64,000 nucleotides of DNA from Eretmocerus hayati (lineage: Eukaryota; Arthropoda; Insecta; Hymenoptera; Aphelinidae): the NCBI GenBank assembly GCA_029851415.1, contig CM056741.1:88013282-88077281 (forward strand). Direction: 5' to 3'. Position numbers and translations under genes: made by a program. The notes beneath the pieces are model-generated. The model did no database searches. It worked only from the letters and a program-made list of their open reading frames with translations, and was not told the DNA's origin. Shown in pieces: positions 1-64,000 of the stretch; the first letter of the stretch is position 1; each line of letters begins with the position of its first letter.

Positions 1-93
1 AGACAGAGTGGTAGCAGCTCTGCTTGGGAAAGTCCATCCCATAAAACATACGACTAGTTTACTTTCCCAGGGTTTTCCGCCCCGGGCGTAACA
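1..93 (+). repeat. 3' end of a probable 5' LTR (U5), cut by the window edge
   Basis: The stretch ends in CGTAACA, a TG...CA-type LTR terminus. The LTR at 61738-62058 also ends in CGTAACA. A primer-site-like sequence starts five bases later. The LTR start lies outside the window, so length and target duplication cannot be checked. Confidence 0.4.
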
Positions 94-98
94 AAAAC

Positions 99-120
99 TG
101 GTACCCAGAGCGTGGTTCGG
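99..120 (+). other. Primer binding site-like sequence, tRNA-iMet type
   Basis: It begins TGGTA and continues AGAGC..GGTT, resembling the complement of an initiator tRNA-Met 3' end apart from a few mismatches and an indel. The position just after an LTR-like terminus is right for a reverse-transcription primer site. The match is by eye from memory of tRNA sequences. Confidence 0.4.
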
Positions 121-143
121 GTAACAAAAATCAAACAAACATC

Positions 144-323
144 ATGTCGGACGCCTCAAATTCGCGATCGTACATTAAAGAAGTTAACATATCAGCCCTA
201 CTAAACAGAATAATCTCGTCGATACTGGAACAAAAAGCAAAATACAGGCACCGAAGCCACACTGATCACCCCCAATGGTTGCTATCGGGTAATCCAACAT
301 CTTTGGTCACCGCAAAATTCTAA
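144..323 (+). CDS. Small ORF of 59 aa upstream of env
   Basis: It runs ATG to TAA between the primer site and env. The product is basic and Ser-rich with no hydrophobic segment and is not recognised. It could be a leader peptide or chance. It stops about 108 bases before env. Confidence 0.25.
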   Translation: MSDASNSRSYIKEVNISALLNRIISSILEQKAKYRHRSHTDHPQWLLSGNPTSLVTAKF

Positions 324-430
324 GCTTTTACAGTCGAAGCCTGCACCAAACGGGACCGGGTCTCCTTGCACGCTGCTGAAATCCTTTTCGACATTACTAG
401 TGGAATACCCAGAACAAGCGGAGCCCAACA

Positions 431-2161
431 ATGGATCCCAGAATAGCACTCACCGCGTTTCTTATCGTGAGCGCAGCAAGGCCCGATTACCAAATGAAAA
501 CGATACCCGAAGAAGTGGGACTATTTTTCGAGTATTACGGAACACTGCGACTAGCCGAATCATATTATCAGCATAAAATCACCATCGACCCCGAAAAATT
601 CAATATCCTACCAATCGGATACGAGGAACAGATGAGAATGGTTGGGGGAAAATGCCACCCAGAAAGCGTAGAATGTCAACAACTTCTACATAAACGCGAA
701 GGCCTGTACGTTCAGATGGACCAATTAGATGCGACCTACAAGACGATCCGGAATTTCGCGCAACGCGATACTACGGAAATATTCAACGAAGCACCCGAAT
801 CATCGGATCCCATAATCCTGCACGCGCAAAGAGTCTCTAATAACCAATCTTTCACAATCTTTTACCCGACCCGGGAGACCTCACTAGATGACAGTATTCC
901 CGAACTGGCCGAAGCAGAAATAAATAAACTGATCCAACCCGCGACCGAACTTTTCGACTCAACTCAAGACAAATCCACCGCCATCCTTTTGGCCCCAGAT
1001 CGGATCGAGCACCTAGAGGCTGTTGAAACATGGGCCAACACGATCGAGCCAGTAATAAGAATACAAGCAATGATGTACAATCGGCTATTGGATATCATCG
1101 AGAATGCTCACAAAAATATCGTTTCCCCGTACTTATTAGGACAATACAAAACCCGAGATCTACGGAAACGCCTCAAAAAGAAATATCCCAATCTAGTCTG
1201 GACCCTACAACCCGAGGCACTCAAAATGTTCATTTATCCCAACGTGGACTCCATCAACATAGAGATGGAAATCCCAATTTTCAAAAAGGAAAGGTACCAT
1301 ATGTACAGAGTACATCCCATAGTTTCGCGGGTTAACAATAGCCACGTCAGGCAACTACAAATTGATCACGAATATATAGGTATCAACCCGCCAGGAGCTG
1401 TCGTCGCCATCCCAGCGAATCATCGCAGATGCACACAACTAAGAAGAGGGTCTATCTGTCATGGGTTGCCCCGAATAGACGAAAGCTCGATTTGTGAAGC
1501 CTCAATCCTGACCACGGGGCAGGGCAGCCAGTACTGCAGAACCCATACACAGCTATCCACCCAAGCTCACGTAGAATACCTAGAAAAATCGAAATCATGG
1601 CTCCTGTCCGGACTGGTCAATGATACAGCGCTCGCCGGCTGCACTACAAAGGGTGACCAATTTCCAAAAATATCCCGAGCAGGAATAGTACAAATTCGAG
1701 AAACCTGTTTCCTCACAGTGGACAACATCACTCTGCCAGCTACCGGGTACAGAGATACGCTGTTAGTATTGCACAAATACAACATGAGCGAATGGATGGA
1801 ACAAACCAGCAGCCAGCCCCCCCCCCCCCCCCAAAACAAATCAAACTACACAAAGTGGTTTTATTGGATTATAATCATCTCCGTTGCCGGGATGAATATA
1901 TATTTAATTCATTCCGTTCTCAAACTCAGGGCCCAAATACCTGAAGCCCTGCACGTGCACTACAGGACGGTGTACAATAACCACACGGTGCGCCAAGTCA
2001 CGGTAAAAGCCACCCAAGAAAGCCCGTCAGAAGGAGACGATGGAAAAATACCGACGCAACCTAAACTTCCTTTGTATGACACCCCGAGATCTCACGCACC
2101 GAAAGTTCGATTTCCAATTAACGAGAACAAAACAGCCTCCAAGGAAGACAATCACGACTAG
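431..2161 (+). CDS. env: Envelope-like glycoprotein of an insect retroelement
   Basis: This 576-aa ORF is intact. It has a short hydrophobic N-terminus (about residues 5-16) that could be a weak signal peptide. A segment near residue 30 (GLFFEYYG) resembles the start of errantivirus and baculovirus F-type envelopes, from family knowledge. A Cys-rich region lies at about residues 336-435, with several N-glycosylation sequons. One strong transmembrane segment lies at about 476-497, followed by a cytoplasmic tail of about 80 residues: type I topology. A basic stretch (RKRLKKK, near residue 250) could be a cleavage site but is not a clean furin site. A run of 16 C bases (1817-1832) encodes a Pro tract before the membrane segment. 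The role would be membrane fusion and particle entry. An intact env beside a broken RT is notable. Confidence 0.7.
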   Translation: MDPRIALTAFLIVSAARPDYQMKTIPEEVGLFFEYYGTLRLAESYYQHKITIDPEKFNILPIGYEEQMRMVGGKCHPESVECQQLLHKREGLYVQMDQLDATYKTIRNFAQRDTTEIFNEAPESSDPIILHAQRVSNNQSFTIFYPTRETSLDDSIPELAEAEINKLIQPATELFDSTQDKSTAILLAPDRIEHLEAVETWANTIEPVIRIQAMMYNRLLDIIENAHKNIVSPYLLGQYKTRDLRKRLKKKYPNLVWTLQPEALKMFIYPNVDSINIEMEIPIFKKERYHMYRVHPIVSRVNNSHVRQLQIDHEYIGINPPGAVVAIPANHRRCTQLRRGSICHGLPRIDESSICEASILTTGQGSQYCRTHTQLSTQAHVEYLEKSKSWLLSGLVNDTALAGCTTKGDQFPKISRAGIVQIRETCFLTVDNITLPATGYRDTLLVLHKYNMSEWMEQTSSQPPPPPQNKSNYTKWFYWIIIISVAGMNIYLIHSVLKLRAQIPEALHVHYRTVYNNHTVRQVTVKATQESPSEGDDGKIPTQPKLPLYDTPRSHAPKVRFPINENKTASKEDNHD

Positions 2162-2322
2162 GTGAATGATTCTGACCTTTTGATATTCCAGAACGCAGAC
2201 TAGACGCAATCAACGTCAAAAAAGACATCATAAGGCACAATACTGTGAATTAATCACCAGGCGCCCACTCCAGGGCGAAGTAAGCGAAGGGATTACCCAT
2301 CCCCACCCATCGCGGAGGAAAA

Positions 2323-2366
2323 TATAAGCCGGGCCCAATCGAAGCCACGGCGCAGTCGACTTCAGC
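2323..2366 (+). promoter_or_regulatory. LTR-like TATA promoter core inside element A
   Basis: TATAAG sits at 2333-2338, preceded by ATCGCGGA and followed by CCG. The same arrangement (ATCGCGGA, then TATAAGCCG) is in the LTR of element C at 61880-61903. A TTCAGCT initiator-like sequence lies about 30 bases downstream. It may drive the small ORFs and gag separately from env, or may be the remnant of an LTR. CGGCGCAGTCG at 2349 also resembles the tRNA-Ser primer site of errantiviruses, but no LTR end lies before it. Confidence 0.35.
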
Positions 2367-2475
2367 TCCTCCTGAAGTAAGGAAGCCTTCCAGGACCATC
2401 GAGCCTACCTCTCTCTCCGGAAGGTATCAAGCTACATATCAGCATAAATAATTTCAAACGTCGAGTCCAGCCTAT

Positions 2476-2598
2476 ATGGAAATAACTATAATTCACGTGT
2501 TGGTGATCATACTTTCAATAGTCAACTCTTTGATTCTCCTCGCATTGGCTATTCGAATCGTAATCAACAGAATCTTAGACATACTTGAAACTGAGTAG
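2476..2598 (+). CDS. Tiny membrane protein A (40 aa)
   Basis: Nearly all of this ORF is one hydrophobic helix (about residues 4-31), followed by a short acidic tail ending ETE. It starts ATGGAAAT, as does the next ORF, and stops only four bases before it. The pair look like duplicates: both begin MEI, are hydrophobic and contain LDIL. Small one-pass proteins are common viral accessory products (viroporins, fusogens), but that role is inference. Protein function is not recognised. Confidence 0.4.
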   Translation: MEITIIHVLVIILSIVNSLILLALAIRIVINRILDILETE

Positions 2599-2602
2599 CC
2601 CC

Positions 2603-2770
2603 ATGGAAATCATACTTTACTGCTTGCTGTTATTCATTCCCGTCACTGTATTCCTGGATTACGTCTATTTCACCTTTTTGAACATAGTACTTGTCAAATA
2701 CGTTCTCGACATTCTACTACCCTGCCACCCCGGGGAACACATCCATATTCGTCCTCAGGAACAGGCATAG
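2603..2770 (+). CDS. Tiny membrane protein B (55 aa)
   Basis: One long or two short hydrophobic segments (about residues 3-40) are followed by a His- and Pro-containing polar tail. It starts four bases after the stop of the preceding tiny ORF, a spacing that suits termination-reinitiation. It shares the opening MEI and an LDIL motif with its neighbour. Not recognised. Confidence 0.4.
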   Translation: MEIILYCLLLFIPVTVFLDYVYFTFLNIVLVKYVLDILLPCHPGEHIHIRPQEQA

Positions 2771-2774
2771 GCAG

Positions 2775-2990
2775 TTCTGTGCGTTAATTGACACGAGCCT
2801 TGCTCCCTTCACCCCTCTAGACCAATAAGTGCTTACCCGCCTTGTGCGTTGATTTGCACGGGCTCCCGCTTGCCACCCACTATAGACCTTTAAGAACCCA
2901 TCTCCACTCTGTGCGTTAATTTGCACGAGTCTTCACCCTTAATCCACGGCTGAGCACTCACCCGCATGCACTCCCACCAATTTAGCCTAT
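2775..2990 (+). repeat. Three ~66-bp units each with a GTGC...GCAC dyad
   Basis: Near copies of GTGCGTTAATTTGCAC occur at 2779-2796, 2844-2860 and 2911-2926, the first with a small change. Each can form a GTGC/GCAC stem, and between them are CT-rich stretches ending in CACCC-like text. They lie in the gap between the tiny ORFs and the coiled-coil ORF and could be an RNA structural element or a protein-binding array. Confidence 0.5.
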
Positions 2991-3116
2991 GCCTTGAGTG
3001 AGAAACCGAAGAGCGAAGATAGTCAAATTTCACCTTGTCGACCCTGCCAATACAGTTCACCTCGAACTATTAGACGAACTGGATAAATTACTTGCTAAGA
3101 TCTAATCTTTTAATCA

Positions 3117-3416
3117 ATGGACGAGGGCAAGCAGCCCTCCGCCGAGAACCTTAACCAAACTCTACGAAAACTAGAGCACATTAATTCAGAAATACAGTGC
3201 AGCATCAGTAGAGTAGCGCGTAACCAAAAAGAACAGGGAAATATACTAGAGAACCAGTGCGAAGTGAATTATAATAACTATTTGATCGGATCCAACTTGT
3301 ACCAGAAGGTTCAGGACCTCGAAAGCAAATTAGAACGGCTGATCGGCATAGTGCACGAACTCTGCTCGGTCATAATCAAGGACAACACCGAGTTCAAGAC
3401 CAAAACCAAATTATAA
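3117..3416 (+). CDS. 99-aa coiled-coil accessory ORF
   Basis: A charged, helical protein with heptad-like spacing (NLNQTLRKLEHINSE and YQKVQDLESKLERLIGIVHE) and three Cys. There is no membrane segment. It is complete and lies 168 bases before gag on the same strand. It may be a separate accessory product or part of a spliced Gag N-terminus. Not recognised. Confidence 0.45.
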   Translation: MDEGKQPSAENLNQTLRKLEHINSEIQCSISRVARNQKEQGNILENQCEVNYNNYLIGSNLYQKVQDLESKLERLIGIVHELCSVIIKDNTEFKTKTKL

Positions 3417-3584
3417 GAGAGGAAGCTACGCTCTAATTCGAGACAGATCAGAAAAATAAAAAGTCGACGGGTTCACGGACCAGGACAGACGGAGCGAGGA
3501 GGAGCATAACTCGGGACAAACGCTCTCCCGTCAGCTACATCCCACGCCCCTGCTCACCGAATTGACACTCGGTACGTCGGCGAT

Positions 3585-4598
3585 ATGCCCGACAACGGCA
3601 GAGAAAACCCAGAAGTAACCATGGCCGAAGAGTTGGCTAGGACCCTTGCCGGGGCCATAACCAACAATTTCTCGCTACAATACGTGGTACAGCGGATCCC
3701 TCAATTCGATGGCCGAAATATGTCCTTGAAAGAATACGTCCAAATCGTGAGCACAGGGAAACAGTGGGTCACGCTTGAACAAAACGAAGATTACTTGAAA
3801 GCAGTGATCGGAGAACTCAGAGGAGCCGCGAGAGATAGCGTCTCCGGAAAGACACTCAACAACCTAGACGAACTTCTGAAACACTTGAAAGAAAGATTTG
3901 CAATAGGAAGGGACTACAGTTACTACTGCAACAGAATCGCATCGCTGCGTATGAAGCAAGGACAGTCCATTGGGGAATACTATGATTACCTCAACTCACT
4001 ACTCGCAAGTGCGGATAAAGCCTTAAAACAGGAACTCGGAGGAAATTACAACACGATAATGATAAAACCCCTCCAAAAGACATCCATTGACGCCTTTACC
4101 CGGGGACTACCTCCCGACCTCAGCCGATCGGTAGACATGCAAAGACCAGACACTCTGGAGAAAGCATACAACGAAGCAGCCCGGTTAGAAATCAGTATGG
4201 CCGCAGAAACCATACCTGACAGCCGTCAAAAATATTTTTCCGCAAGACAATACGATCATCCAAAAAATCAAATACGAATTTTGCAGAGGAACAAAGAGCC
4301 CCGGCACGGTGACAGGCCATTCCCGACCAGCACCGACAATCGCCAAGACACAAGAGATTCGGTCGCCCAATTTCCAAGAGGATACGACAGGCCACCCTGG
4401 AACCAAGGACGCCCATGGCACAAAACACGCAGAGTGGGCAACGAAGGAAGAGGTGTCAACGCAGGGCCCCCGTATTTAAACTACTATGGGGCTCGCCGCC
4501 CTGCAGCGACGGGCCAACCACAGAACCTGCCACCCCGGAACTTCTGGAACGACCCTCAGAACCGAGATACCCCACGACCGATAGAGTCATACCAATAG
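3585..4598 (+). CDS. gag: Gag of element A
   Basis: The 337-aa ORF has the errantivirus and gypsy Gag layout. A capsid-like helical core (about residues 35-205) contains IPQFDGRNMSLKEYV and the region around YCNRIASLRMKQGQSIGEYY. A basic Arg- and Pro-rich C-terminus (about 225-337) lacks a CCHC knuckle, as is usual in this group. It forms the particle and binds RNA. It overlaps the pol frame at its 3' end through a slippery heptamer. The ORF is intact, unlike RT. Confidence 0.85.
   Translation: MPDNGRENPEVTMAEELARTLAGAITNNFSLQYVVQRIPQFDGRNMSLKEYVQIVSTGKQWVTLEQNEDYLKAVIGELRGAARDSVSGKTLNNLDELLKHLKERFAIGRDYSYYCNRIASLRMKQGQSIGEYYDYLNSLLASADKALKQELGGNYNTIMIKPLQKTSIDAFTRGLPPDLSRSVDMQRPDTLEKAYNEAARLEISMAAETIPDSRQKYFSARQYDHPKNQIRILQRNKEPRHGDRPFPTSTDNRQDTRDSVAQFPRGYDRPPWNQGRPWHKTRRVGNEGRGVNAGPPYLNYYGARRPAATGQPQNLPPRNFWNDPQNRDTPRPIESYQ
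4475..4481 (+). promoter_or_regulatory. Programmed -1 frameshift site, T TTA AAC
   Basis: TTTAAAC is one of the classical X XXY YYZ heptamers, and its codons TTA AAC are exactly in the gag frame. Slipping back one base enters the long protease-pol frame. A GC-rich stretch able to fold starts about 8 bases downstream (GGGGCTCGCCGCCC, then GACGGGCC). This explains how pol is made without its own start. Confidence 0.65.
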
Positions 4599-5947
4599 CA
4601 GAACAACTTTCAGAGGCCGCCTCAATACCGACCGCAGAACAGTTACGTACAAAATCCCAACCGTCAGAATATCCAATGGGAAGATCGCCAACGGACAAGC
4701 CAACCGAGCTCGCTTCCGCAGAATGCGCCCTTCCCGACCCCTCGAAACCCACCACCTTCGAGCAACTACAGGAACGACCAAGTCGGAACCAGGGGTACCC
4801 CGAACGAGCCCTCCTCAGCAGCGAACCAGCCGGGAACCTCGAGAGTCATGATGCTTCACCAACTGACCAAAGACCACCATGTATTAAGTCGTGCTGGCGA
4901 TCTATAGTCCCGAGCGCCATCCGCGACGAAGCGACCTTCATCCGTACCCGGATTCCGGAACTTAAGAAGGCATGGGCAACCTTTTTACTCGACACCGGAT
5001 CCGATGTTAACTTGATAAAAAAGGGCATCTTGAAACCTGAACTAGAAGTGATCAAGAACGACGTCGAATTTAGAGGGATCGGACCCTCTGAGGTCGTGAA
5101 ATCCATAGGGTTCACCTATCTAACCATAAAGGGGCAACTAATACCCTTTTTCATCGTCGACAACGACTTCCCCATGAAAACGGATGAACTGTTGGGTCGA
5201 GCTTATTTTTACGACAGCGAAGCACTACTCAACTACAGCACGAAGGCCATGGTAGTGAACACCGACGTGATGCATCCCATGCCCTTTGTGCTCAAGAACA
5301 AGCCCAAAAAGAAGAAACGCACCATCAAGCAAGCCGATAAGGTAGAGCACTCCACCGACGAAGAAAATGACCTAATAGACGACCCGGATTTCTGCCAACT
5401 AGAGGAAGACAGCGACCCCGAGCTTACCTCGTCAGGGACCTCGGAGGAAGGAGTTAAAGAACCTACTCGCCAGATGATCAGGGCTCGCACCAGGCAGGTC
5501 ATCCATATCAATTTAATTGACACCAACCTAAAAGAGGGGTACTTGCCCAGGATCAAAGCGGTCGAAGGAGTATACCTAGGTGAAGGGCTCGTAAGTAACG
5601 ACAACGGCAAATGCAAAATTATGGCCATAAACACTTTGGACAAGGACGTGTGCATAGACATCAACCCAAAAGAGATCCTCGACTACGAATATTACGTGCC
5701 CTCATTCGATTCCGAATCTAGTTCAGACGGAGGACTAGCCCCCGAGCAGGACCTACGGCTCCGGGCTGAAAAGGTAAGAGAACTTATACGCAAAGATCAT
5801 CTTAACCCAGAAGAGCGACAAACCGTGGAGAAACTGATCGAAAATTTTGCGGACGTCTTCCTATTACCCGGAGACACACTGCCCTGCACACACGTAGCAG
5901 AACACGAAATACCCACCATCGACGACATACCCATCAACGTGAAATAA
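4478..5947 (+). CDS. pol: Pol N-terminal part: Pro-rich linker, protease, RT lead-in
   Basis: The frame is open from 4415 but is probably entered by frameshift at 4475-4481. A Pro- and Ser-rich linker of about 150 residues is followed by an aspartic protease with LLDTGSDVNLI (catalytic Asp codon at 4991) and the C-terminal LLGRAYF motif. An acidic stretch follows, then the conserved lead-in with LIRKDHLNPEE and IPINVK. The frame ends at a TAA (5945-5947) where related elements continue into RT, so this is a premature stop. Protease looks functional by motif. Confidence 0.85.
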   Translation, partial: KLLWGSPPCSDGPTTEPATPELLERPSEPRYPTTDRVIPIAEQLSEAASIPTAEQLRTKSQPSEYPMGRSPTDKPTELASAECALPDPSKPTTFEQLQERPSRNQGYPERALLSSEPAGNLESHDASPTDQRPPCIKSCWRSIVPSAIRDEATFIRTRIPELKKAWATFLLDTGSDVNLIKKGILKPELEVIKNDVEFRGIGPSEVVKSIGFTYLTIKGQLIPFFIVDNDFPMKTDELLGRAYFYDSEALLNYSTKAMVVNTDVMHPMPFVLKNKPKKKKRTIKQADKVEHSTDEENDLIDDPDFCQLEEDSDPELTSSGTSEEGVKEPTRQMIRARTRQVIHINLIDTNLKEGYLPRIKAVEGVYLGEGLVSNDNGKCKIMAINTLDKDVCIDINPKEILDYEYYVPSFDSESSSDGGLAPEQDLRLRAEKVRELIRKDHLNPEERQTVEKLIENFADVFLLPGDTLPCTHVAEHEIPTIDDIPINVK

Positions 5948-6978
5948 TACAGGCACCCCCCTATACACACCAAGTACTAGAAGAAGACATAGCCAAGAAA
6001 TTGAAAAACGGCATCATTCAGCCCTCCAATTCACCGTACAATTCGCCGTGTTGGATTGTGCCAAAACACCCAGATAGCCAAGGTAGACCCAGATGGCGGG
6101 TAGTAATCGACTTTCGTGAACTGAACAAAAAAACAATTGGTGATGCCTATCCTTTGCCCAACATTGCCGACATTTTGGACAAACTAGGAGGCGCAATCTA
6201 CTTCTCTACATTTGACCTGGCAAGCGGATACAGCCAAGTACCCTTGAAAAAGGTGGACAGGTACAAATCTAGCTTCAGCACTCCCCGCGGACATTGGGAG
6301 TACACCCGCATGCCTGAAGGGCTCTGTAACGCTACCGCGACCTTCGAAAGGATGATGGAAAAAATACCAAAAGGACCCCTAGACTCAGAGATGCTGGTCT
6401 ATCTGGATGACGTCATTGTACATGCAAACTCTTTAGCAGAACACACACGAAAGGTAAGGTTGTTATTCGAAAGATTACGCGCAGCCAACCTGGTACTACA
6501 ACCAGACAAAATCGAGTTCCTGCGAAAAGAAGTAGGCTTCCTAGGGCACATCGTCAGCGAGAAAGGAGTCGAACCGGATCCGAAGAAAACATCAGCAGTT
6601 AAGAACTTTCCGACCCCCAAGAACCAAAAAAACGTTCGCCAGTTCCTTGGCCTAGTCGGATACTACCGCCGATTTATTAAAGACTTCTCGAAAATTGCCC
6701 GGCCTCTATTCGAGCTCACCAAGAAAGCACAACATTTTTACTGGAAGAAAAAAGAAGATGAGGCCTTCCAGTTCCTCAAACACCAGTTATGTCAAGCTCC
6801 AATTCTACTATTTCCAGATTCCGAAAAACCTTTCACCCTGACAACCGACAGTTCTGACTACGCCATAGTCGCCGTACTCAGCCAAGAGAAGGACGGTTTC
6901 GACCACCCCGTGGCAAACCTGTCTCGAACCCTAAATAAGCACGAAAAAATTACAGTACAACAGAGAAAGAATGCTTAG
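5948..6978 (+). pseudogene. pol: Reverse transcriptase domain, broken
   Basis: After the stop at 5945 the RT resumes in another frame, with a shift near a run of six C (about 5957-5962). The motifs present are VIDFRELNKKT, DLASGY, the YLDD catalytic box (6400-6411), VGFLGHIVS and the connection LVGYYRRFIKDFSKIARPL. It runs into RNase H motif 1 (TTDSSDY) and ends at a stop caused by a second frameshift near 6962-6970. The RT fold is complete at the residue level but cannot be read as one protein. Confidence 0.9.
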
Positions 6979-7259
6979 CCGCTCTCTACGCAATGCACCA
7001 CTTCCGGCCGTACCTGTTGGGAAAGAAATTCACACTACAAGGAGATCACGAACCACTAACCTGGATGCACAACCGCAAGGACCCCGGACAGAGGTTAATG
7101 CGCTGGATGTTCAAGTTCACAGACTTTGAATATACTTTTAAATACAAACCAGGGAAGCTGAATAGCAACGCAGACGCCTTATCTAGAAACCCCGAGATTG
7201 ACGACGTTAACTCCAAACAATATGAATTCATTCCAAACGAGTTACTCATATTGAACTAA
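6969..7259 (+). pseudogene. pol: RNase H C-terminal part, out of frame; element truncated after it
   Basis: After the frameshift, the frame with HHFRPYLLGKKF continues to GDHEPLTW and NSNADALSR, the C-terminal RNase H signatures with the expected Asp residues. The frame stops at 7259. Integrase (HHCC and D,D-35-E) should follow and is not found in the next 2 kb. Confidence 0.8.
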
Positions 7260-9438: not shown

Positions 9439-10425
9439 CATGTTCACTAACATGAAACATTATTGATTTCATAGAATCATTCGCGCAGATCTAATGATGC
9501 CCAAGAAGGTGATCTAAGAAAAGCAAACTTACCAAGGAATTGATATTCGCTCAATACCTACTTTCATCGTTGATCTCAGAAAACCATCTTCTTTCGCAGA
9601 CCTTATCATGCTCAAAAACATGATATCTTCTACCCTCCATGAGTAGATCTGATCATAAAAACATCTCCGTTAGCAGACCTTATCATGCTCAAAAACATGA
9701 TATCTTCTACCCCCCATGAGTAGATCTGATCATGCCCAAGAACATAATCCAAGGGGGGCAACATCTCCAAAATATTGTTTCATTCACTCGATACCTGTAT
9801 TCATGTTCATCAACATGATACGTTCCATTGATTCCATGAAATCATCTTCTTTCGCAGACCTGGTCATGCTCAAAAACATGATATCTCCTACTTTCATTCA
9901 GTCAATGGGTCCTGGGAAAATGGTTCATATCCTGCTCTCGTAACCTTATACCTGATAGAAATCCAGTGCAAGTCCTAGATACTCTACATTCAAATTTGGT
10001 AAAGCCACAGATCTTCGCTCGAGGCATTTTTTTCAAATTCCACCTACAAGAACAGTTTCAAGTTAGAACCAAGATAGTTGGATCAGCTTATATTATTTTG
10101 TAGGCACAAGTCATTTCTCAACTTATACAACTCTATCGATGATTATCTGAGGTACATGGACTATGAGCTGTCAATTTTATCAATATACTATGTAAAATTC
10201 TGGAAAAATATTCCAGTCCAATTTTCATTGAGTTCTATGAATATAGAATATGATCCCTGACTAGAGAGTGATATGAACTTGAATAACTCTTCAATTGATA
10301 ATTTGGAACTACACTTCTAAGTGTTATCTCAGAATACTCGCTCGAGCGAGAACCTCTATCATGAAACTTTGATAGGCATCCTGAAGACTGAATTCAGACA
10401 TTCACAGATCATGTTCAAGAGCATG
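9439..10425. repeat. Dispersed CATG-N8-CATG dyads in a degenerate repeat array
   Basis: CATG, exactly eight bases, then CATG occurs at 9439, 9607, 9684, 9802, 9865 and 10410, with a decayed copy at 9731 (ends CATA). Spacers are all variants of YTCAANAA. The copies at 9587-9730 and 9838-9905 are embedded in longer units sharing TTCGCAGACCT and ATGAGTAGATCTGATCAT. Confidence 0.6.
10010..10345 (+). repeat. Diverged direct repeat, copy 1
   Basis: The order of motifs CTCGCTCGAGGCA, TTTTGTAGGCAC, AAAATTCTGGA, TGAACTTGAATGACT-like and CACTTCTAAGTG is shared with 15222-15561 in the same orientation. It is an old interspersed repeat or a segmental duplication flanking element B and the ORFs after it. 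Confidence 0.5.
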
Positions 10426-47964: not shown

Positions 47965-49490
47965 AAAGAGTGTCAAACCGGTACCATGGTACTGTTACGG
48001 TCATCGGCGAGTATCGATCTGCTCCTGTAAGGTCCTTGGCGAGCATCGATGTGGTCCCTCCTGTAACAGTTATCGGCGAGTGTCTATTTGGTTCCGTGTC
48101 GGTCCTGTACCAGTCCTCGGCGAGTGTCAATCTGGTCCCGTATCGGTGACGGGCGGGTGTCGATCTGGTCCCGTATCGGTCCTGTACCGGTCCTCGGCGA
48201 GTGTTGATGTGGTCCTGTTACAGTTATCGGCGAGTGTCCATTTGGTTCCGTATCGGTCCCCGGCGAGTGTCGATGTGGTCCAGTAACAGCCATCGGCAAG
48301 TGTCGATCTGGTCCCATATCGGCCCTGTACCGATCCTCGGTGAGTGTCGACGTGATCCCGTTACGGTCATCGGCGAGTGTCAATTTGGTCCCGTATCGGT
48401 GCTCGACGAGTGACGATCTGGTCCTGTTACGGTCATCGGCGAGTGTCGTCGATCTGGACCTGTATCGGTCCTCGGCGAGTGTCGATGTGGTCATGTAACA
48501 GTTATCAGCGAGTATCCATTTGGTCCCGTAACGGTTCTGTACCGGTCCTCGGCGAATGTCGATGTGGTCTCGTAGCAGTCATCGGCGAGTGTCAATTTGG
48601 TCATGTAACAGTCATCGGCGAGTGTCCATTTGGTTCCGTATCGGCCCTGTACCGGTCCTCGGCGAGTGTCGATGTGGTCCCGTAGCAGTCATCGGCGAGT
48701 GTCAATTTGGTCCTGTAACAGTTATCGGCGAGTATCAATTTGGTCCCGTATCGGTGCTTGGTGAGTGACGATCTGGTCCTGTCACGGTCATCGGCGAGTG
48801 TGGTCGATCTGGCCCTGTATCGGTCCCTGGCTAGTGTCAATGTGGTCCTGTAACAGTTATCGGCGAGTGTCCATTTGGTCCCGTGTCGGTCCTGTACCGG
48901 TCCTCGGCGAGTGTCGATGTGGTCCAGTAACAGCCATCGGCGAGTGTCGATCTGGTCCCGTATTGGTCCTGAACCGATCCTCGGTGACTGTCGACGTGGT
49001 CCCGTTACGGTCATCGGCGAGTGTCGATCTGGTTGGTCCTGTATCGGTCCTTGGCGAGTGTCGATGTGATTCTGTGACAGTTGCCGGCGAGTGTCCATTT
49101 GGTCCCGTGTCGGTCCTGTACTGGTCCTTGGCGAGTGTCAAAGTGGTCCTGTGACAGTCATCGGTAACTTCCGATTTGGTCCTGTAAGGTCCTTGGTGAG
49201 CATCGATATGGTCCTACCTGTAACAGTTATCGACTAGTGTCGATGTGGTCCCGTATCGGTCGTCGGCGAGTGTCGATCTGGTCCCGTATCGGTGGCCGGC
49301 GGGTGTCGATCTGGTCCCGTATCGGTCCTGTACCGGTCCTCGGCGAGTGCCGATGTGGTCCCGGAACCGTCATCGGCGAGTGACGATGTGGTCCTGTTAC
49401 AGTCGTCGGCGTGTGTCGATCTGGTCCTGTATCGGCCCCTGGCTAGTGTCGATGTGGTCCTGTAACAGTTATCGGCGAGTGTCCTGATCG
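47965..49490 (+). repeat. 33-bp minisatellite, array 1
   Basis: Units read CTCGGCGAGTGTCGATGTGG plus GTCCCGTA-like text, some with an extra 12 bases (GGTCCTGTACC). The 33-bp length is 11 codons, so long repetitive frames appear on both strands; these are not treated as genes. Confidence 0.85.
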
Positions 49491-49495
49491 CCGAT

Positions 49496-49929
49496 AACTA
49501 TTACAGGACTCTTGAAAATATGTGTGGAGTGATGAATGACACCATCACTTGAGGGCTATTTTTTTTTTATATACTAAGAGTAGCTATAGATGTGAGCAAG
49601 GTGAATTCAGTTTTCCATGTCATAATGTTCTGCATAACTGCACAATCAAATTGAATCACAGATCAAAGTTTGAGGTTCACTGTTTTCTGATCAATTAATT
49701 AAAACTGTTGAAATGCTGAACTCAATAAGTCACTTAATCATAAAGAATTATCTCGGAGCTTGTGCTCTTGTTCTCTTTCTGCGCACCAAACCCCGCATTC
49801 AACGATTCTTAGGTGGCACTGGGGAATACAGCATCCAAATATCCTGGATTTAATCTGGATAGGCTTGGATATGCTGCATTGTGATCCACTGTGCCACTAC
49901 ATGTATGGCCCATGAGGACCGCAACAGCT
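49496..49929. other. No gene seen
   Basis: AT-rich spacer between the minisatellite and the right long inverted arm. Confidence 0.4.
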
Positions 49930-50860
49930 GTGTCCAATGTCGTGACATGTGCCAGCTAGGGTCCCTATAGTTAGTGACGCGTCAATTGCCAACAAAAAAT
50001 AAATCTCGAGGGAGAGATTACGTTATCCACGATTTAGAACTAAATAAGAAAATTCAGCAGCCACGAACGAAAAATACACGCAAACCATAACCCCCATCAA
50101 GTACGCATAGCGTCTCGCGTCTCGCGTCTCAGGCTGCTTTTTTGCTCGATTGCAATTCGTAAATGCGACGAGCAATCTTCGACACATACGGCATTCAAGT
50201 TTGGTTCTCAAAATGACCGGGGCCCCAATCCTAATTGATTGGGACGGGGCAAGCAAGATCTCTAGCCCCTTTCCGGGCTTAATTACCTATAGTTTGAATG
50301 ACCGTGTTTCACAATAACACTAAATCGCACGGCAGAGATTACTTATGTACTACACTCGAATTCACTGCCCCTACTCGTTCCTGGTCATTTAAAATAAACT
50401 CGCACATTGCACTCACGTGGCACACTAGCAGCAAACCAGCAGATGCGCGGAAACACAAAATGTCAACACTGGCGTTACAAGCGTTACAAAAAGCGTTACA
50501 AAACCCACATAAATTTTTCCCGGTCATTGAATTACATTAAATGATGCAAATATCAAAGTCGAAAACAACCATTTTCGACTCAAAATTTCGCGATCTTTCT
50601 GATGGTATGCTTGAAATTTCGCTCCGATCGATATTCGCCGAAATAGCAAAAACATGCTTGTGAAAATTCATTCACAATTCCGCAACGAAAAGAGATATCG
50701 TAATTTTGACCACGCCAATCGCTTTGCAAAGAATTTTTACGTTAGAAATGTGCTTGCCGCATGGATTTCAAACGATTTCCAACATTTCCCAAACCAAAAT
50801 CGGAAGCAAAAAAAACCGCCAAGTTATGTTTGTCACTCGGTATGTCCACATATGTGTACA
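49930..50860 (-). repeat. Right arm of the ~0.9-kb inverted repeat
   Basis: Reverse complement of 38112-39025. Its outer edge runs directly into the terminal motif and TTAA at 50875. Confidence 0.85.
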
Positions 50861-50950
50861 TTGGTCAGAAGAGGTTAACTTCTCAAAAATCCGGACCCAT
50901 GACCATTTATCCTGCGGACGGGGAATACGCAGAAGGAACTTCTCTTCTTA

Positions 50951-51133
50951 TACAGCAGAACCTCGAATAGCGGACACCCCGAAAAAGCGGATACTACGCA
51001 ATAGCGGACAATTTTTGGAGCTCGATTTGATTCCCATCGATTCTTATGGGACCAAACCCTCGGAATAGCGAACAATTTTTGTCGGTTGAATGGTCTTGTT
51101 ACAAGAAATTCCAACTCGCAATAACGGACATAC
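50951..51133. mobile_element. Short pogo/Tigger-like MITE
   Basis: It starts CAGCAGAACCTCGAATAGCG after TA and ends ...AATAACGGACATACTG. The inside repeats AATAGCGGAC. Ends are typical of pogo-type families; the right-hand TA is not clear. Confidence 0.5.
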
Positions 51134-51280
51134 TGAATTTCCTTCCTCCATCAATGCAAGAATACAGTGACGTGTAAAGAAGACTGTCGTCAGAACTAGT
51201 GAGGCTCAAAATAATGTACCGTTTGAATGATACAAATGTATCATATGTTAGATAGCCGTGCCACAGTTGACAAATAAGGG

Positions 51281-51490
51281 AGAGTGGGGCAAAGTAGGCA
51301 CCGTAATATTACGAGGCTCTCAGTAATTCGATTCAACCCTTCGAGAAATTTTAAAGTGGCCGATCGAATGATTGAAGCCTGAAGAATGTGATTGCGTGGA
51401 CAAGAATTTGTATACGAACCGTATTTTCCAAAAAAGTCCAAAATGCTGAGACTATGCAATTCTGCCCACTTTGCCCCACCGTGGAGTAAA
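51281..51490. mobile_element. MITE with GGGGCAAAGT ends
   Basis: GTGGGGCAAAGTAGGCA at the left and TGCCCACTTTGCCCCAC at the right form an inverted pair around about 150 bases. Confidence 0.5.
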
Positions 51491-51774
51491 GTGGGCAGCG
51501 GCTAGGGTGAAGTGAGCATTTGGAAATCTTCGCTCCCCAGTCATATTTTATATCAATTAGAGTATTCAGATGGATGCACGATCAAATTCTCTTCCTATTT
51601 GACTACTCATATCACTGCTAACTCGAAATGTGAACAAATAATACGGCTTCGGAGAAACTGTTGTTCGAGTTAAGTTCGAGTCGGCTGTTCAATGCAGCTG
51701 TCGGAGCAGGAAACGGACCGAGCGGCGCTGCTGCCGCGACTCCATGAGAAATACACAGGAAAAACTCGTACGAA

Positions 51775-52275
51775 ACCAGATCGACACTCGCCGAGGGCCA
51801 GTACGAGACCAGATCGACACTCGCCGAGGACCGGTACGCGACCAGATCGACACTCGCCAAGGACCGGTACGGGACCAGATCGACACTCACCGAGGACCGG
51901 TACGGGACCAGATCGACACTCACCGAGGACCGGTGGAGGACCACTTCGACACTCGCCGAGGACGGGTACGGGACCAGATCGACACTCGCCGAGGACCGGT
52001 AGAGGACCACATCGACACTCGCTGAGGACTGGTATGAGATCCCATCGACACTCGCCGAGGACCGGTACGTGACCAGATCGACACTCGCCAAGGACCGGTA
52101 CGGGACCAGATCGACACTCGCCGAGGACCGGTAGAGGACCACTTCAACACTCGCCGAGGACGGGTACGGGACCAGATCGCAACCCTCTGGGGACCCGTAT
52201 AGGACCAGATCGACACTCAGAGAGGACCGGTACAGGACCCCATCAACACTCACCGATGGCTGGAACTGGACCACA
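51775..52275 (-). repeat. 33-bp minisatellite, array 2, inverted relative to array 1
   Basis: About 15 units of GACACTCGCCGAGGACCGG plus TACGGGACCAGATC, the reverse complement of the 47965-49490 unit. The units here are more uniform than in array 1. Confidence 0.85.
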
Positions 52276-53064
52276 TCTTGACTGAGACGACTGGGCCAAT
52301 TCTTACCAAGAAGATCTTCTGGTATTTTTCCCCCAAATAGTCCCCTCCGGTGATCATGCGCCCAAATGACCGAGCAGCTGGTATGGTGTTGATACCATCC
52401 CGAGCGGGTGCTTAATTCGTGTCTAACGAGTTCTACACAGATACTGCGTTAGGATTTGAGTGGATCAGCTCATTTACCGAATGAGACTGAATGCGGGATC
52501 TGGTATAGGGCTGGCATCCGTTCCAGAAGGTCGCTATTGTGTCAAAAATCATGTCAATCCAAAAGGAATTTATTCTCTGGTGGATCTGCACCAAACCGAC
52601 CGAACATCTCGACTATCGTCGATTTTGTCCCCAAAGTTGTGAGTGTGATGCAATGAAACGTGCAGTTGTAGTCCAAGCATGCGCGATTGAGCCGCAACAA
52701 GCTGGCGTTTTTACGCTTGCGCGATAAATTCAAACTTATGAAGGTTTTGACGTGGCTTGACACAGTTAATATCGATTATTGGTCGATCTTTATCAAATTT
52801 TGACTTTTCCCCGCCCACGTGATTTGTAGAACCCATGTTTGCCGGTGACGAAAGTTTTTTCGGACGTCAACAACAATACCTCATCAAAGTTGATATTTCA
52901 TATTAACACCTCATATATTATAATAAAGCCAGATCTAACCTCCACAAGTAGCAGCATACATTTCTTTTCGGAGGTTTCTTTCCGTTCCGGACATCTTATT
53001 TCGCCCTGATGCACGATGAACGAGAGCGGCAAAATTAAAAATCCACCCAACGCACTCGGCACTC
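52276..53064. other. No gene seen
   Basis: Mixed composition. A 66-aa and other short frames at 52456-52727 were not recognised. Confidence 0.4.
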
Positions 53065-55112: not shown

Positions 55113-58061
55113 ACGCCGTATCTAATAAGCTTCCACTCCCGATTAACAACACATTTCAACGATCTTGAATATTTTCTTGCCTGTCATCAATCTTATGATG
55201 CTGTAGCACTCAGTGAGACTTTTCTCAAGCCTGATCAAGCTAGCTCTGTCTTCAACTTAGCCGGGTACAACTTACTTCGAAATGACCGAATCGGCAAGGA
55301 TGGCGGTGGAGTTGCCCTTTTTCTGCGTGACTGCTATAAGTCAAAGATTCTAGCTTGCTCTGACCCCCAGTATGACAATACCCCTGAGTACATGATTGTT
55401 GAAGTCAAATATGAAAATGTTAAGATTCTGATAGCAGTCGTTTACCGGCGTCCGGAAGCCACGTACCCCATTGAACTATTTGAATCCCTCTCTGAACTCC
55501 TACCAGCTTATCCCAATTTCATAATCACAGGCGTTTTCAATTTTTATATGCACATGAAACATCCGGATTCTGACTATTTTCGTGAATTACTTATTGCGCA
55601 TGGTCTCAAACTGGTTACATCTGAAACAACTCATCACGTGTTATATGCAGATGGCTCACGATCGGATACCTGGCTCGACTTGTTCATTGTTCCCTCGTTG
55701 GATTTTGTCCGTTCATACCACAAGTCAGATGTGCCCTTTGCGGCTGGTCATGACTTGATTAGTCTCGAATTTAACCTTCCCTCATTATCTGTTGCACCCA
55801 AAACAATTCAGACGCGGAATCTCAAATCGGTGAACTTTGATCAACTACGTGACTATTTGGAGTTCAGGCTGATCCAGACTGCAGAATGCTCTAAGATCAA
55901 TTATTCGAATACCCAAAATTTTGTTTCATCATTGGCTCAACACCTTGCTAATACAACCCTCGAGGCCTTCAATGTTCACGCACCGTGCAAAACTATCACA
56001 ATACGCCCACATCAAAAACCTTGGATCTCGAATGACATTAGAACCATGATGAGTGCTCGGGACGCAGCGTATCGGTGGGCAAAAGAGTCGAAAAAACCTG
56101 CGGACGTTCAAAATTTTAGAAGACTGAGATCTGAGGTGAGCAACAAAATTGATAGTGCTAAGAATCAGTATCTTTCATCCCTTCTTCAAAATTCAAAAGA
56201 TCCTAAAACTCTCTGGAAAGAACTCGGAACAATAGGTGTTGCAGCACCTAAGTCTCCCTCTCCTCTCAAATACTTCTCAGCACAAACACTAAACGAACAC
56301 TATGCTGCTATCTCCCGCGGTTCCCCTCCACTTCAACCCATTGACATTGAAAGCGTACTAAACATTCCTCTCAGAAATGTTGTTCACGGCCAATTTGAGT
56401 TCATGCCCATCTCTGGTGAGGACATTGATGAGGCTCTGGCTAAAGCTACAAAAAATTGTACAGGAGTGGACTCAATATCCACTTCCATGTTGAAATCGGT
56501 CTATCCGATACTCCGTCCTCACCTCATAGAACTATTCAACACTTCAATTGAAAATGGAGTCTTTCCCGACTGCTGGAAATTAGCGTCAATCATACTACTT
56601 TCTAAGACAGACCCTCCTGCAACACCTTCGGACACACGCCCCATAGCAGTACTCTCTGAACTTTCCAAATTATTTGAACGCATCATCCACAAACAGTTAC
56701 TGTCATATCTCACGACTCATAATCTGCTTGATGCACGACAGTCTGGTTTCAGGCCTCATCACTCAACACAGACTGCCCTTCTTGGATTTACGGAAGATGT
56801 ACGTCTAGCCAGTGATCGATACATGGTAACTGCTCTGCTTCTCTTTGATTTTTCGAAGGCATTCGATACCGTTTCTCACAAGCTCATTCTCGAGAAGCTT
56901 CGACGCCTGAACTGTTCAGATACTGTCATAAAATGGTTCTCGAGCTATTCATCTGGTCGTCATCAAGCAGTACGTGATGAAGACGGATCCATTTCTGATC
57001 CGATTGAGATCTTTGCAGGTGTGCCACAAGGAAGTGTTCTGGGTCCTCTCTTATTCACAATATTCATCAATGATCTTCCTAGCTTACTGCAACATGCGAA
57101 GCATGGTATTTACGCTGATGATACTCGTATATATGCTCATTGTCGCGTTCCAGATTTGACCAAGTGCTTACGGCAGTTAAATGATGATGCTGATCGAGTA
57201 TATGAGTGGGCCCGTACCAATTTAATAAAACTCAACCCTGACAAAACCAAATTTATGATCCTCGGTAGCTCCATTTACATCAAATCAATAGACTTTTCTT
57301 CGCTTCCTCCACTAATCATCAATGGAGTGACCATTCCACATTCTGAACAAGTAAGTGACCTCGGTGTTCAGCTTGAGTCCTCTCTCAAATGGAATAAGCA
57401 CATCAACGGGATATCAAGTCATGTTCATGGTGCCCTCTACAAATTACGTTTCCATAAGCGTGCCTTATCCAAAAGTCTGAGACAGCGGTTAGTTGAAGTC
57501 CTGATTTTTCCATACTTTGATTATGCATCCTCTGTTTATAATGATGTGCCCAAGGAGCTGAACCTCAAACTCCATCGGCTATTGAATGCATGTGTTCGTT
57601 TTGTTCACGGTGGGATTCCTTGGGATGCCCCGGTGACCCCGTATCGACTAGCACTGGGCTGGCTCACAGTTGAGGACCGTCGCGAGTACTTACTAGCAGC
57701 GCTTGCTTTTGGGGTTATAGCATCAAAACAGCCGTCGTATCTTGCAAATTTATTTCGTCTGAGAATTGACACGAACTTTCGCTTCTCGACTAGGCATACC
57801 CCACCACCTTTATTATATGCAACACCTCGGACTGACGCACTAAAAAATTCATTTCACATAAGAGCTTCTTTCTTTATCAACTCCAATGCCCCAGATACGG
57901 TATTTCAGCTCAAACTCCTTGATAGTTTCAAGACTCTGATCCGTAATAAACTTTTACTTAATGAGGCTGCAACGTGGCGTACGCGGGCGGTGAACGATGC
58001 GCTGTTGATGAACCCTCTCCCCAATGACAGTATGCTTGAGAATTTACTGAGTGACTCGTGA
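55113..58061 (+). CDS. LINE ORF2: endonuclease and reverse transcriptase (CR1/L2-like)
   Basis: The frame is open from about 55053 and no ATG occurs before 55392, so the true start is lost or non-AUG. An APE-type endonuclease contains VALSETFL, the GGGVALFL region and AAGHDLIS. The usual GDFN motif reads GVFN (Val codon at 55533), removing a catalytic-region Asp. The RT contains SKAFDTVSH, GVPQGSVLGPLLF, the YADD box (57111-57122) and LNPDKTKFM, then a C-terminal region without RNase H. RT is uninterrupted over more than 900 codons. Its product would nick DNA and reverse-transcribe its own RNA at the nick. Confidence 0.9.
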   Translation, partial: TPYLISFHSRLTTHFNDLEYFLACHQSYDAVALSETFLKPDQASSVFNLAGYNLLRNDRIGKDGGGVALFLRDCYKSKILACSDPQYDNTPEYMIVEVKYENVKILIAVVYRRPEATYPIELFESLSELLPAYPNFIITGVFNFYMHMKHPDSDYFRELLIAHGLKLVTSETTHHVLYADGSRSDTWLDLFIVPSLDFVRSYHKSDVPFAAGHDLISLEFNLPSLSVAPKTIQTRNLKSVNFDQLRDYLEFRLIQTAECSKINYSNTQNFVSSLAQHLANTTLEAFNVHAPCKTITIRPHQKPWISNDIRTMMSARDAAYRWAKESKKPADVQNFRRLRSEVSNKIDSAKNQYLSSLLQNSKDPKTLWKELGTIGVAAPKSPSPLKYFSAQTLNEHYAAISRGSPPLQPIDIESVLNIPLRNVVHGQFEFMPISGEDIDEALAKATKNCTGVDSISTSMLKSVYPILRPHLIELFNTSIENGVFPDCWKLASIILLSKTDPPATPSDTRPIAVLSELSKLFERIIHKQLLSYLTTHNLLDARQSGFRPHHSTQTALLGFTEDVRLASDRYMVTALLLFDFSKAFDTVSHKLILEKLRRLNCSDTVIKWFSSYSSGRHQAVRDEDGSISDPIEIFAGVPQGSVLGPLLFTIFINDLPSLLQHAKHGIYADDTRIYAHCRVPDLTKCLRQLNDDADRVYEWARTNLIKLNPDKTKFMILGSSIYIKSIDFSSLPPLIINGVTIPHSEQVSDLGVQLESSLKWNKHINGISSHVHGALYKLRFHKRALSKSLRQRLVEVLIFPYFDYASSVYNDVPKELNLKLHRLLNACVRFVHGGIPWDAPVTPYRLALGWLTVEDRREYLLAALAFGVIASKQPSYLANLFRLRIDTNFRFSTRHTPPPLLYATPRTDALKNSFHIRASFFINSNAPDTVFQLKLLDSFKTLIRNKLLLNEAATWRTRAVNDALLMNPLPNDSMLENLLSDS

Positions 58062-62153: not shown

Positions 62154-62435
62154 GTGACACCATCGCCGCTGCCGACGTTCGAGAGGAGTGGGCCAACCAG
62201 GACATCGAGCTCAACGACAACCGTGCCTAACGTCGCAGCGCATAAAAGAGGGAAAAATACAGAGGAACAACTCGGCCGATCTTGCAACCAAGGAGGGAAT
62301 GATAGCGACATTCATACTCGTCATGATCGCAGGCCGAGCTGCAACTCAGTAAGTGGCATTCGATCCATATCAAATCTCCGCCGACTCATCCCACCCTTGT
62401 GTCTATCTATTACCAAAAGGAAAAGAGAAAAATGA
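62154..62435 (+). CDS. Possible leader ORF before gag of element C
   Basis: An open frame without ATG (GTG-initiated as scored) of 93 codons; its TGA overlaps the gag ATG (ATGA). The product is Ser-, Arg- and Lys-rich and unrecognised. The overlap could be chance or a coupling of the two frames. Confidence 0.25.
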   Translation: MTPSPLPTFERSGPTRTSSSTTTVPNVAAHKRGKNTEEQLGRSCNQGGNDSDIHTRHDRRPSCNSVSGIRSISNLRRLIPPLCLSITKRKREK

Positions 62436-64000
62436 CTAGAAATCCTAAAGCCTTGATCACCGGATATTTCCAAAGGAAGCTGGAAAAAGCAAAATCCGAA
62501 CAAAATCTAAACAATATACCTGATAGAGAGAGTACTTTTCGAGACACAAGGACGGGATACGCGAGCACGGACCCTCTGCCAATAAATATAGACGAGAATC
62601 AGGTACACTCGAGGTCAAATCTTCGATTAGACAAAGACTCTGCTGACACCACACAACGAAACATACACGAATCTACACAAGAACACGAAACTTCCGACGT
62701 AAACCCCACTGATTATCCACACCAAAACATATACGAGCCCAGACAGGATTGTGTAGAAACTAATGAACCCACAAAAGTACCGGTACCTATCGTCTCACCG
62801 GGAGACTTAGAATGGATCGCTCGTACCGGAAGAATTCCCATGCATCTCATGCTAGCGCAAGCTAAGACTTTGGGCTGGACCCCAGAAGGGAACCCGTGGC
62901 ACAACTTAGAGTCAAGCCTAAACGATCATATCGCGAACCCGACACTAAACCCTCGGTCAACACAGTCAATTCAATACCCATACCCACAAGCCCAATCACC
63001 CCAAAAATTTTACAACGAACAACCTCTCACGTATCCCCAAAATCCGCAAAGCCAAATAACTCAGACGGGACACTTCCAGCCATCCACCCCAATAATATCG
63101 TCATCAAATAACAACCAATATCCTACATATCCCCGTCCATCACCAACAACACAATATTTCCAACCATCAATTTCAACAGTTAACCAACCATCCCAGCAGA
63201 TAAATTACTCAGCAAACCAACTACATACCCAAAACCGCCCGACAATGCCACAACAATACCCAGAATACAACACCCAACCGATACAAACCCAAACACCGTA
63301 TTATGTACAACCACCCTTCACACAGCACATGAATAATGCGTACCAGCGACACCACATACAACAGGAAGCAACTCAACAATACCACAACATGCAACAATTC
63401 CAAGCCATAAATCCAAATTCACAACATAACGAACCGTACACATACCCACAATCTCTATCGCCACAAACTCAACAAAATACCGACGCAAATCAAACACTAC
63501 AGCAGACGACACACTTTCAGTCTCATCCTAAAAATGGGATGACACGAGAAGACCGGGCAAAACTAGACCATATTCCCGATTTTGATGGTTCACCAATGTC
63601 CCTGGCTACATATAGAGATAGAATCCGCCACGTAGTGCCAAATTGTATAAATGATCAAGAACAACGAGAAATTTCGGGGAGAATTCAGGATAAACTCAAG
63701 GGAAACGCGAAAACCGACTTTTACTACAAAATGTTGAGTTTCAGAACAGTAGACGAATTTTTAACGTCAATTTACGAAAAATACAGCATAATAGATTCAC
63801 CCGAGAGTATCTTGTTTGAAATTAACACCCTCACGGCACGACGTAACGAAAATCCAACCGATTTGGGACGCAGAATGAGTTCCCTCCTACAGAAATACGA
63901 AATCATGATAAACCTTCCGTCGGATAAGTCGGATCTAGAGAAGCAATTTAGGAGAATCGACGCCCAAATCAAAACACGCGATAGATTTTTATTCCTACTA
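62432..64000 (+). CDS. gag: Gag of element C, open to the window edge
   Basis: 523 codons from ATG at 62432 with no stop, so the 3' end lies outside. Residues 1-130 are polar. Residues 115-145 hold WIARTGRIPMHLMLAQAKTLGW, a motif also common in host-like transcript-binding folds but here of unknown role. Residues 155-365 are a Gln-, Pro- and Tyr-rich low-complexity region. The capsid-like domain starts near residue 375 with IPDFDGSPMSLATYRDRI, aligning by eye with the Gag of element A. The long Q/P-rich insert is unusual for this family. Confidence 0.75.
   Translation, partial: MTRNPKALITGYFQRKLEKAKSEQNLNNIPDRESTFRDTRTGYASTDPLPINIDENQVHSRSNLRLDKDSADTTQRNIHESTQEHETSDVNPTDYPHQNIYEPRQDCVETNEPTKVPVPIVSPGDLEWIARTGRIPMHLMLAQAKTLGWTPEGNPWHNLESSLNDHIANPTLNPRSTQSIQYPYPQAQSPQKFYNEQPLTYPQNPQSQITQTGHFQPSTPIISSSNNNQYPTYPRPSPTTQYFQPSISTVNQPSQQINYSANQLHTQNRPTMPQQYPEYNTQPIQTQTPYYVQPPFTQHMNNAYQRHHIQQEATQQYHNMQQFQAINPNSQHNEPYTYPQSLSPQTQQNTDANQTLQQTTHFQSHPKNGMTREDRAKLDHIPDFDGSPMSLATYRDRIRHVVPNCINDQEQREISGRIQDKLKGNAKTDFYYKMLSFRTVDEFLTSIYEKYSIIDSPESILFEINTLTARRNENPTDLGRRMSSLLQKYEIMINLPSDKSDLEKQFRRIDAQIKTRDRFLFLL

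Follow-up and report, generated by a model that had tools for sequence, protein, structure and literature searches.

Does an envelope gene that precedes gag belong to the normal gene order of a retroelement, although gag-pol-env is regarded as almost invariable in retroviruses? The question is raised by a stretch of 64,000 nucleotides from the aphelinid Eretmocerus hayati (assembly GCA_029851415.1, contig CM056741.1, positions 88,013,282 to 88,077,281 of the forward strand), hereafter the window. Its 5' end falls within a long terminal repeat (LTR) retroelement of the Ty3/gypsy type, present there as a truncated copy. A preliminary description of this copy had placed an envelope open reading frame (ORF) and several small ORFs in front of gag, had named a composite of two copies as the rival reading, and had proposed to look for the same order between matching LTRs at other loci. 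We compared the copy with others in the same 692 Mb genome, the source of all copies and families reported here. The comparison indicates that env1 before gag is very likely the normal order of the element, common to related families, and not the junction of two copies.

Fourteen LTR pairs were examined in family 1, to which the window copy belongs. Eleven of them align to both LTR ends and underlie the counts given here, including the pair of copy T, which was aligned in two pieces; copies D (1247 bases, the outer start of the LTR not being reached), P (302 bases) and J (98 bases) were left out. With one span assigned per feature even where matches came in pieces, all 11 LTR-bounded copies exhibited the order LTR, primer binding site (PBS), env1, gag and reverse transcriptase (RT) on one strand, and the proposed recurrence between matching LTRs was thus observed. 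A second envelope gene, env2, was located behind pol in 10 of the 11 copies. Nine of the 11 had, further downstream than env2, an RRM-type match that was either whole or split into pieces. Measured from the LTR start, env1 began at 1458-1623 bp and gag at 4604-5029 bp. Nine copies were 17.7-20.3 kb long. Copy H reached 35.1 kb, its RT and env2 being about 20 kb apart, probably as the result of an insertion, and copy I comprised 10.6 kb without an env2 match. The full order reads LTR, PBS, leader ORF, env1, s1, s2, Arg-rich ORF, cc ORF, gag, pol, env2, RRM-type ORFs, polypurine tract (PPT) and LTR. The 5' position of env described previously therefore holds, with the amendment that a canonical env also stands behind pol in 10 of 11 copies, which indicates that an env was added in front and not moved.

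The full LTRs have a length of about 1.28 kb and the termini TGTGAGG...GTAACA. The LTR pairs of the 11 copies are 94.2-99.84% identical; the highest value, in copy H (2 differences in 1273), points to a recent insertion, no clock being applied. A 5-bp target site duplication (TSD) was perfect in nine copies and agreed in 4 of 5 bases in the other two, and a PPT-like ccaagaaggggaggg was present ahead of the 3' LTR. The LTR-like end noted at the start of the window is the 3' end of the 5' LTR, and other copies have the same bases at their opposite terminus; a comparison of loci places the start of this LTR about 1.2 kb upstream of the window. The adjoining primer site had been likened to tRNA-iMet. 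A PBS-like site is indeed present, but iMet patterns had no match in the genome and no primer tRNA could be confirmed. Among family-1 copies the site differs (TGGTAGCAGAG.., TGGTAGTGAGAG.., TGGTACCCAGAG..), with the variants TGGTAGCAGAGCGTGG and TGGTAGTGAGAGCGTGG beside the TGGTACCCAGAGCGTGGTT of the window, as if different primers had been used or mis-primed events had occurred. LTR pairs, TG..CA ends, short TSDs, PBS and PPT, together with a Ty3-like RT-RNase H followed by an integrase, are the features of the Metaviridae (Ty3/gypsy).

Outside the LTR-bounded copies the order was assessed by locus. In the Env1 protein search the best 76 of 475 candidates were scored, and 81 matches were merged into 53 loci; the best 119 of 1231 candidates were scored for gag and the best 40 of 43 for env2, and the locus count used 71 of 119 gag, 38 of 44 RT and 35 of 45 env2 matches. 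A gag on the same strand within 25 kb was found at 40 of the 53 env1 loci, the other 13 having no gag match, and it lay 3' of env1 in 40 of 40 cases. This result was unchanged when the remaining 48 gag matches (all 119) were added at the 53 loci. The env1 loci share descent and hence do not represent 40 independent events. Of the 35 env2 matches used, 22 had a gag, always on the 5' side, and 13 had none.

The order env1-first also recurs in families which share only about 26-30% Env1 identity. In subfamily 2 (L068-L070) the identity is 47-63% in aligned pieces. The family of L078 and L079 has about 26-28% and 625-aa frames without stops at three loci, and a further group has about 27-30% and 593-aa frames, again without stops at three loci. 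Among other families, some have s2, cc and gag downstream of env1, and some have s1, s2, the Arg-rich ORF and cc there. A PBS-like AACTGGTA... precedes env1 at five of six other-family loci scanned (L068, L069, L073, L078 and L079, not L070); locus order and these sites are the evidence for the other families, the LTR-pair evidence being that of family 1. In a related family with 56% gag identity, an env and an RRM-type match lie behind gag. A single locus of it was read, and no env1, s1, s2 or cc was found over the 2.35 kb that precede gag (best E ~0.2); part of the group may accordingly have acquired the 5' block or lost it.

For a single truncated copy, the default reading would be an env fragment of one copy beside a second copy which starts with gag, all the more in a genome that abounds in Baculo_F env sequences. 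Matching LTR pairs and TSDs rule out such a composite for the LTR-bounded copies. Eleven of these with similar spacing and separate TSDs, and the repetition of the order in several families, render it extremely improbable as an explanation of the locus.

The two envelope proteins differ. Env1, described previously as a 576-aa envelope ORF, was recovered as such by a Baculo_F match (E=9.3e-11) above the curated cut-off, restricted to the later part of the protein. It has a hydrophobic start, a transmembrane (TM)-like stretch near 478-499 and a single RXXR motif, RDLR at 242. No LFG motif was found in Env1, no cleavage-site or fusion-peptide segment was detected where Env2 has one, and no PDB match was obtained. 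Env2 (copy T, L047:4398-6380) matches Baculo_F over nearly its full length (9.4e-36). Its RTPR at 140 is followed by a fusion-peptide-like stretch, PLGIIGTVSKSLFG, which aligns with a solved 'fusion protein' at that place. The two proteins could be aligned over columns 275-435 with 81% probability. The element thus carries, after pol, an Env of the errantivirus type, i.e. a Baculo_F-type protein with cleavage site and fusion peptide. In a separate survey of Baculo_F env across the genome, 64 of the best 72 scored among 972 candidates were free of stops.

The small ORFs of the 5' block are not peculiar to the window copy. The leader ORF was open over 59 aa in five of seven copies with a matched start (10 scanned). 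The two tiny membrane ORFs reported earlier, s1 and s2, have relatives in other families, s1 being alignable across four lineages and s2 across three, L076 adding a less clear fourth at 30%; all eight s1/s2 proteins scored contain a TM-like stretch. Of 12 family-1 copies examined, 10 keep the Arg-rich ORF open over 61 aa, and copies A (the window copy) and C have it broken. In other copies it encodes MPRVRKRR...LELLDELDKLLAKI with a leucine-rich stretch that, in our view, recalls Rev-type regulators. A homologue was found at both subfamily-2 loci examined, and similar ORFs occur at the same place in family 3. The small ORF noted just before gag, here cc, is present and conserved; of 14 other copies with a match to it, 11 have a version of 130-149 aa. 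The 'hairpin array' fared less well. Its repeats exist, with 2-5 units in 15 family-1 copies scanned and no match in eight other-family loci scanned (three subfamily-2 loci, L071, L072, L073, L078 and L079). A conserved RNA structure was rejected on the basis of a fold z of -1.35 and the restriction of the repeat to family 1 among the loci scanned, which leaves a minor tandem repeat of variable copy number.

The assignment of gag, with RT downstream, was confirmed, and gag frames of 464-465 aa are open in many other copies. The DTGS read by eye in the N-terminal part of pol is presumably a protease-like motif. The best PDB matches of RT-RNase H were 4ol8 (2.7e-66), which we take to be a Ty3 RT, and 7q5b, Ty3-G Gag-Pol (2.7e-65). 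In the downstream integrase H2C2 scored above its cut-off and rve just under its own. Three accessory ORFs stand behind env2 in copy T (L047:6416-9220), with lengths of 243, 241 and 400 aa. An RRM match (5.1e-7) was obtained for the first, with RBM45 as nearest solved relative (5.9e-6), the second has a weaker RRM match below cut-off, and the third gave a sub-threshold hint only. In other families, too, relatives are situated close to env2-like genes, and one of these families is among those in which no env1 was found.

A division of labour between the two glycoproteins may be proposed tentatively. Env2 would be the working fusogen, as its protein family suggests, and Env1 with s1 and s2 may constitute a separate membrane module. 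Env1 would be a diverged, non-fusogenic Env in which neither a cleavage site nor a fusion peptide is detectable, and for want of the latter a protein of attachment, egress, transfer or interference seems more likely than a second fusogen. Together with the two tiny membrane proteins it could serve attachment, egress, cell-to-cell transfer, or the control of Env2 or of superinfection. Situated beside the promoter, these genes would be expressed from the 5' portion of the LTR transcript. Gag-Pol is preceded by several ORFs and would depend on splicing or on initiation at an internal site. Retroviruses usually produce Gag from the 5' end of the genomic RNA and Env from a spliced RNA; if the two-glycoprotein reading is true, this expression logic would be reversed for part of the genes. 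In other retroviruses Rev acts on RNA export, and the Arg-rich protein with its leucine-rich stretch could do likewise. An insect retrovirus lineage with a fusogen behind pol and, on the 5' side, a fusion-peptide-less partner encoded along with two membrane proteins and an Arg-rich regulator of the Rev kind is a speculative extension of this proposal.

Env1 looks to be under purifying selection. Between the window and three subfamily-2 loci, dN/dS of env1 was 0.14-0.20 at dS 1.5-2.0, and the small ORFs gave 0.11-0.13 (s1), 0.17-0.23 (s2) and 0.08-0.11 (cc) against subfamily 2, although these values are rough because dS is near saturation. For env2, copy T compared with M, B and J gave 0.35-0.57. 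The roughness of the between-subfamily values is one of several points that weigh against the proposed roles. Within family 1, dN/dS of env1 against the window copy was 0.32-0.62 with several copies decayed; Env1 is broken in 11 of 17 family-1 copies and intact (at least 570 aa) in six. Single family-1 pairs with few changes reached 3.0 in s2, 1.5 in cc and 1.06 in gag. A single-sequence AlphaFold model of Env1 had a pLDDT of 31.9 and was not used. None of the eight s1/s2 proteins scored starts with MGxxxS/T, the N-myristoylation motif which defines sORF2 of the MDG1 elements. An alternative poly(A) signal before gag was discarded as unconserved, since the four family-1 copies examined have it but all six relatives lack it. 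Any function of the 5' block is proposed from its sequence, and the evidence is confined to one genome: no relatives were found for Env1 in the protein database, nor for env1, RT and gag in IMG/VR.

The broken Env1 frames would also suit a 5' block which was captured once and is copied without function, as would the lack of a detected fusion peptide and the gag-then-env family without trace of the block before gag at one locus. Old copies of any gene commonly have broken frames, however, and the low dN/dS between subfamilies, the open frames in relatives at about 26-30% identity and the conservation of s1 and s2 make a mere passenger quite improbable. A function centred on s1 and s2, as cell-to-cell transfer proteins like the sORF1/sORF2 module with Env1 only as helper, would explain the same position before gag and the combination of short membrane proteins with a small basic ORF. 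It is rather doubtful, since MDG1 elements have no env and s1/s2 lack the MGxxxS/T start and, as judged by eye, a polybasic patch after the membrane segment. Env1 might otherwise be directed against other viruses or copies, the element retaining it as a decoy or for interference with entry. Env-related proteins that are fusion-dead and serve other purposes are known, among them Drosophila Iris and baculovirus Ac23, and an Env-like protein with hydrophobic start, TM-like stretch and no fusion peptide found would fit; the retention of Env1 with s1 and s2 suggests a role in the element's own cycle, and we regard interference as unlikely.

The features of the window copy are compiled in Table 1. 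Its similarity to full copies stops at 7223. When the 3' stretches of copies B, M and T, 10 kb each, were compared with the window, they had no further match in it. Full copies continue beyond this point with integrase, env2 and RRM-type ORFs, and env2 could therefore not be seen from the window in the preliminary description.

Table 1. Features of the truncated element at the 5' end of the window (positions in the window)
Feature	Position	Strand	Evidence or remark
5' LTR, 3' end	1..93	+	same bases at 3' end of other copies; LTR pairs and TSDs
Primer binding site region, TGGTACCCAGAGCGTGGTT	99..117	+	starts TGGTA..., five bases past LTR
Short leader ORF, 59 aa	144..323	+	
env1, Baculo_F-type glycoprotein, 576 aa	431..2161	+	profile match, selection, relatives
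s1, membrane ORF, 40 aa	2476..2598	+	
s2, membrane ORF, 55 aa	2603..2770	+	
Three short tandem repeats ('hairpin array')	2777..2937	+	units at 2777, 2842 and 2909
Arg-rich small ORF (MPRVR.. family), stops inside in window copy	2989..3174	+	
cc ORF, 99 aa in window copy	3117..3416	+	
gag, 337 aa in window copy	3585..4598	+	
pol, N-terminal part	4415..5947	+	DTGS motif by eye; without Pfam match
pol, RT and RNase H, interrupted frames	6001..7223	+	similarity to full copies until 7223

Elsewhere in the window, a 77-bp repeat occurs in three copies at 9576-9910, ORFs of repeated peptide units at 48600-52300 are probably a tandem satellite, and an 889-aa ORF at 55392-58061 contains a reverse transcriptase domain that appears LINE-like by eye. 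A 534-aa open frame with strong strand skew (62399-64000) runs past the window end, and a Baculo_F env lies about 10.7 kb beyond that end (C1:88087939); a further env-bearing element may start there.

Among titles and abstract openings of the open literature, no LTR element with env before gag or with two env genes was found; the 2025 metazoan env survey of Chary and Hayashi may describe such elements. A recently amplified lineage with a second, fusion-peptide-less Env and small membrane ORFs before gag, alongside a related gag-before-env family without trace of the 5' block at the one locus read, would amount to a natural experiment on the addition and regulation of entry or exit genes in retroelements. 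With the errantiviruses and other env-bearing gypsy elements (gypsy, ZAM) the element shares gag-pol-env2, a Baculo_F-type Env, LTRs and a Ty3-like RT. Errantiviruses have a single env and only a leader or short exon before gag, whereas in the present element gag is preceded by an additional env and four small ORFs, RRM-type ORFs follow env2, and most LTR-bounded copies attain 18-20 kb. Burro of planarians is likewise giant and gypsy-like, with accessory ORFs and an oddly placed env; its env-like sequence lies in frame between gag and pol (PMC6431247), whereas the element described here has env1 as an ORF of its own ahead of gag and another env behind pol. A report on the MDG1 group (412, Mdg1, Stalker2) describes sORF1/sORF2 before gag, no env and transcripts of about 7 kb, and assigns cell-to-cell transfer to the small membrane ORF before gag (PMC11952523). 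That group and the present element have in common small ORFs ahead of gag, including one that bears a membrane segment; the latter differs in its two env ORFs, in its ORF order and in s1/s2, which have a TM-like stretch only, in place of the single TM segment plus N-myristoylation motif of the sORF2/FAST-like proteins. The present lineage further offers a test of whether envelope-dependent transmission and transmission by small membrane proteins coexist within a single element.

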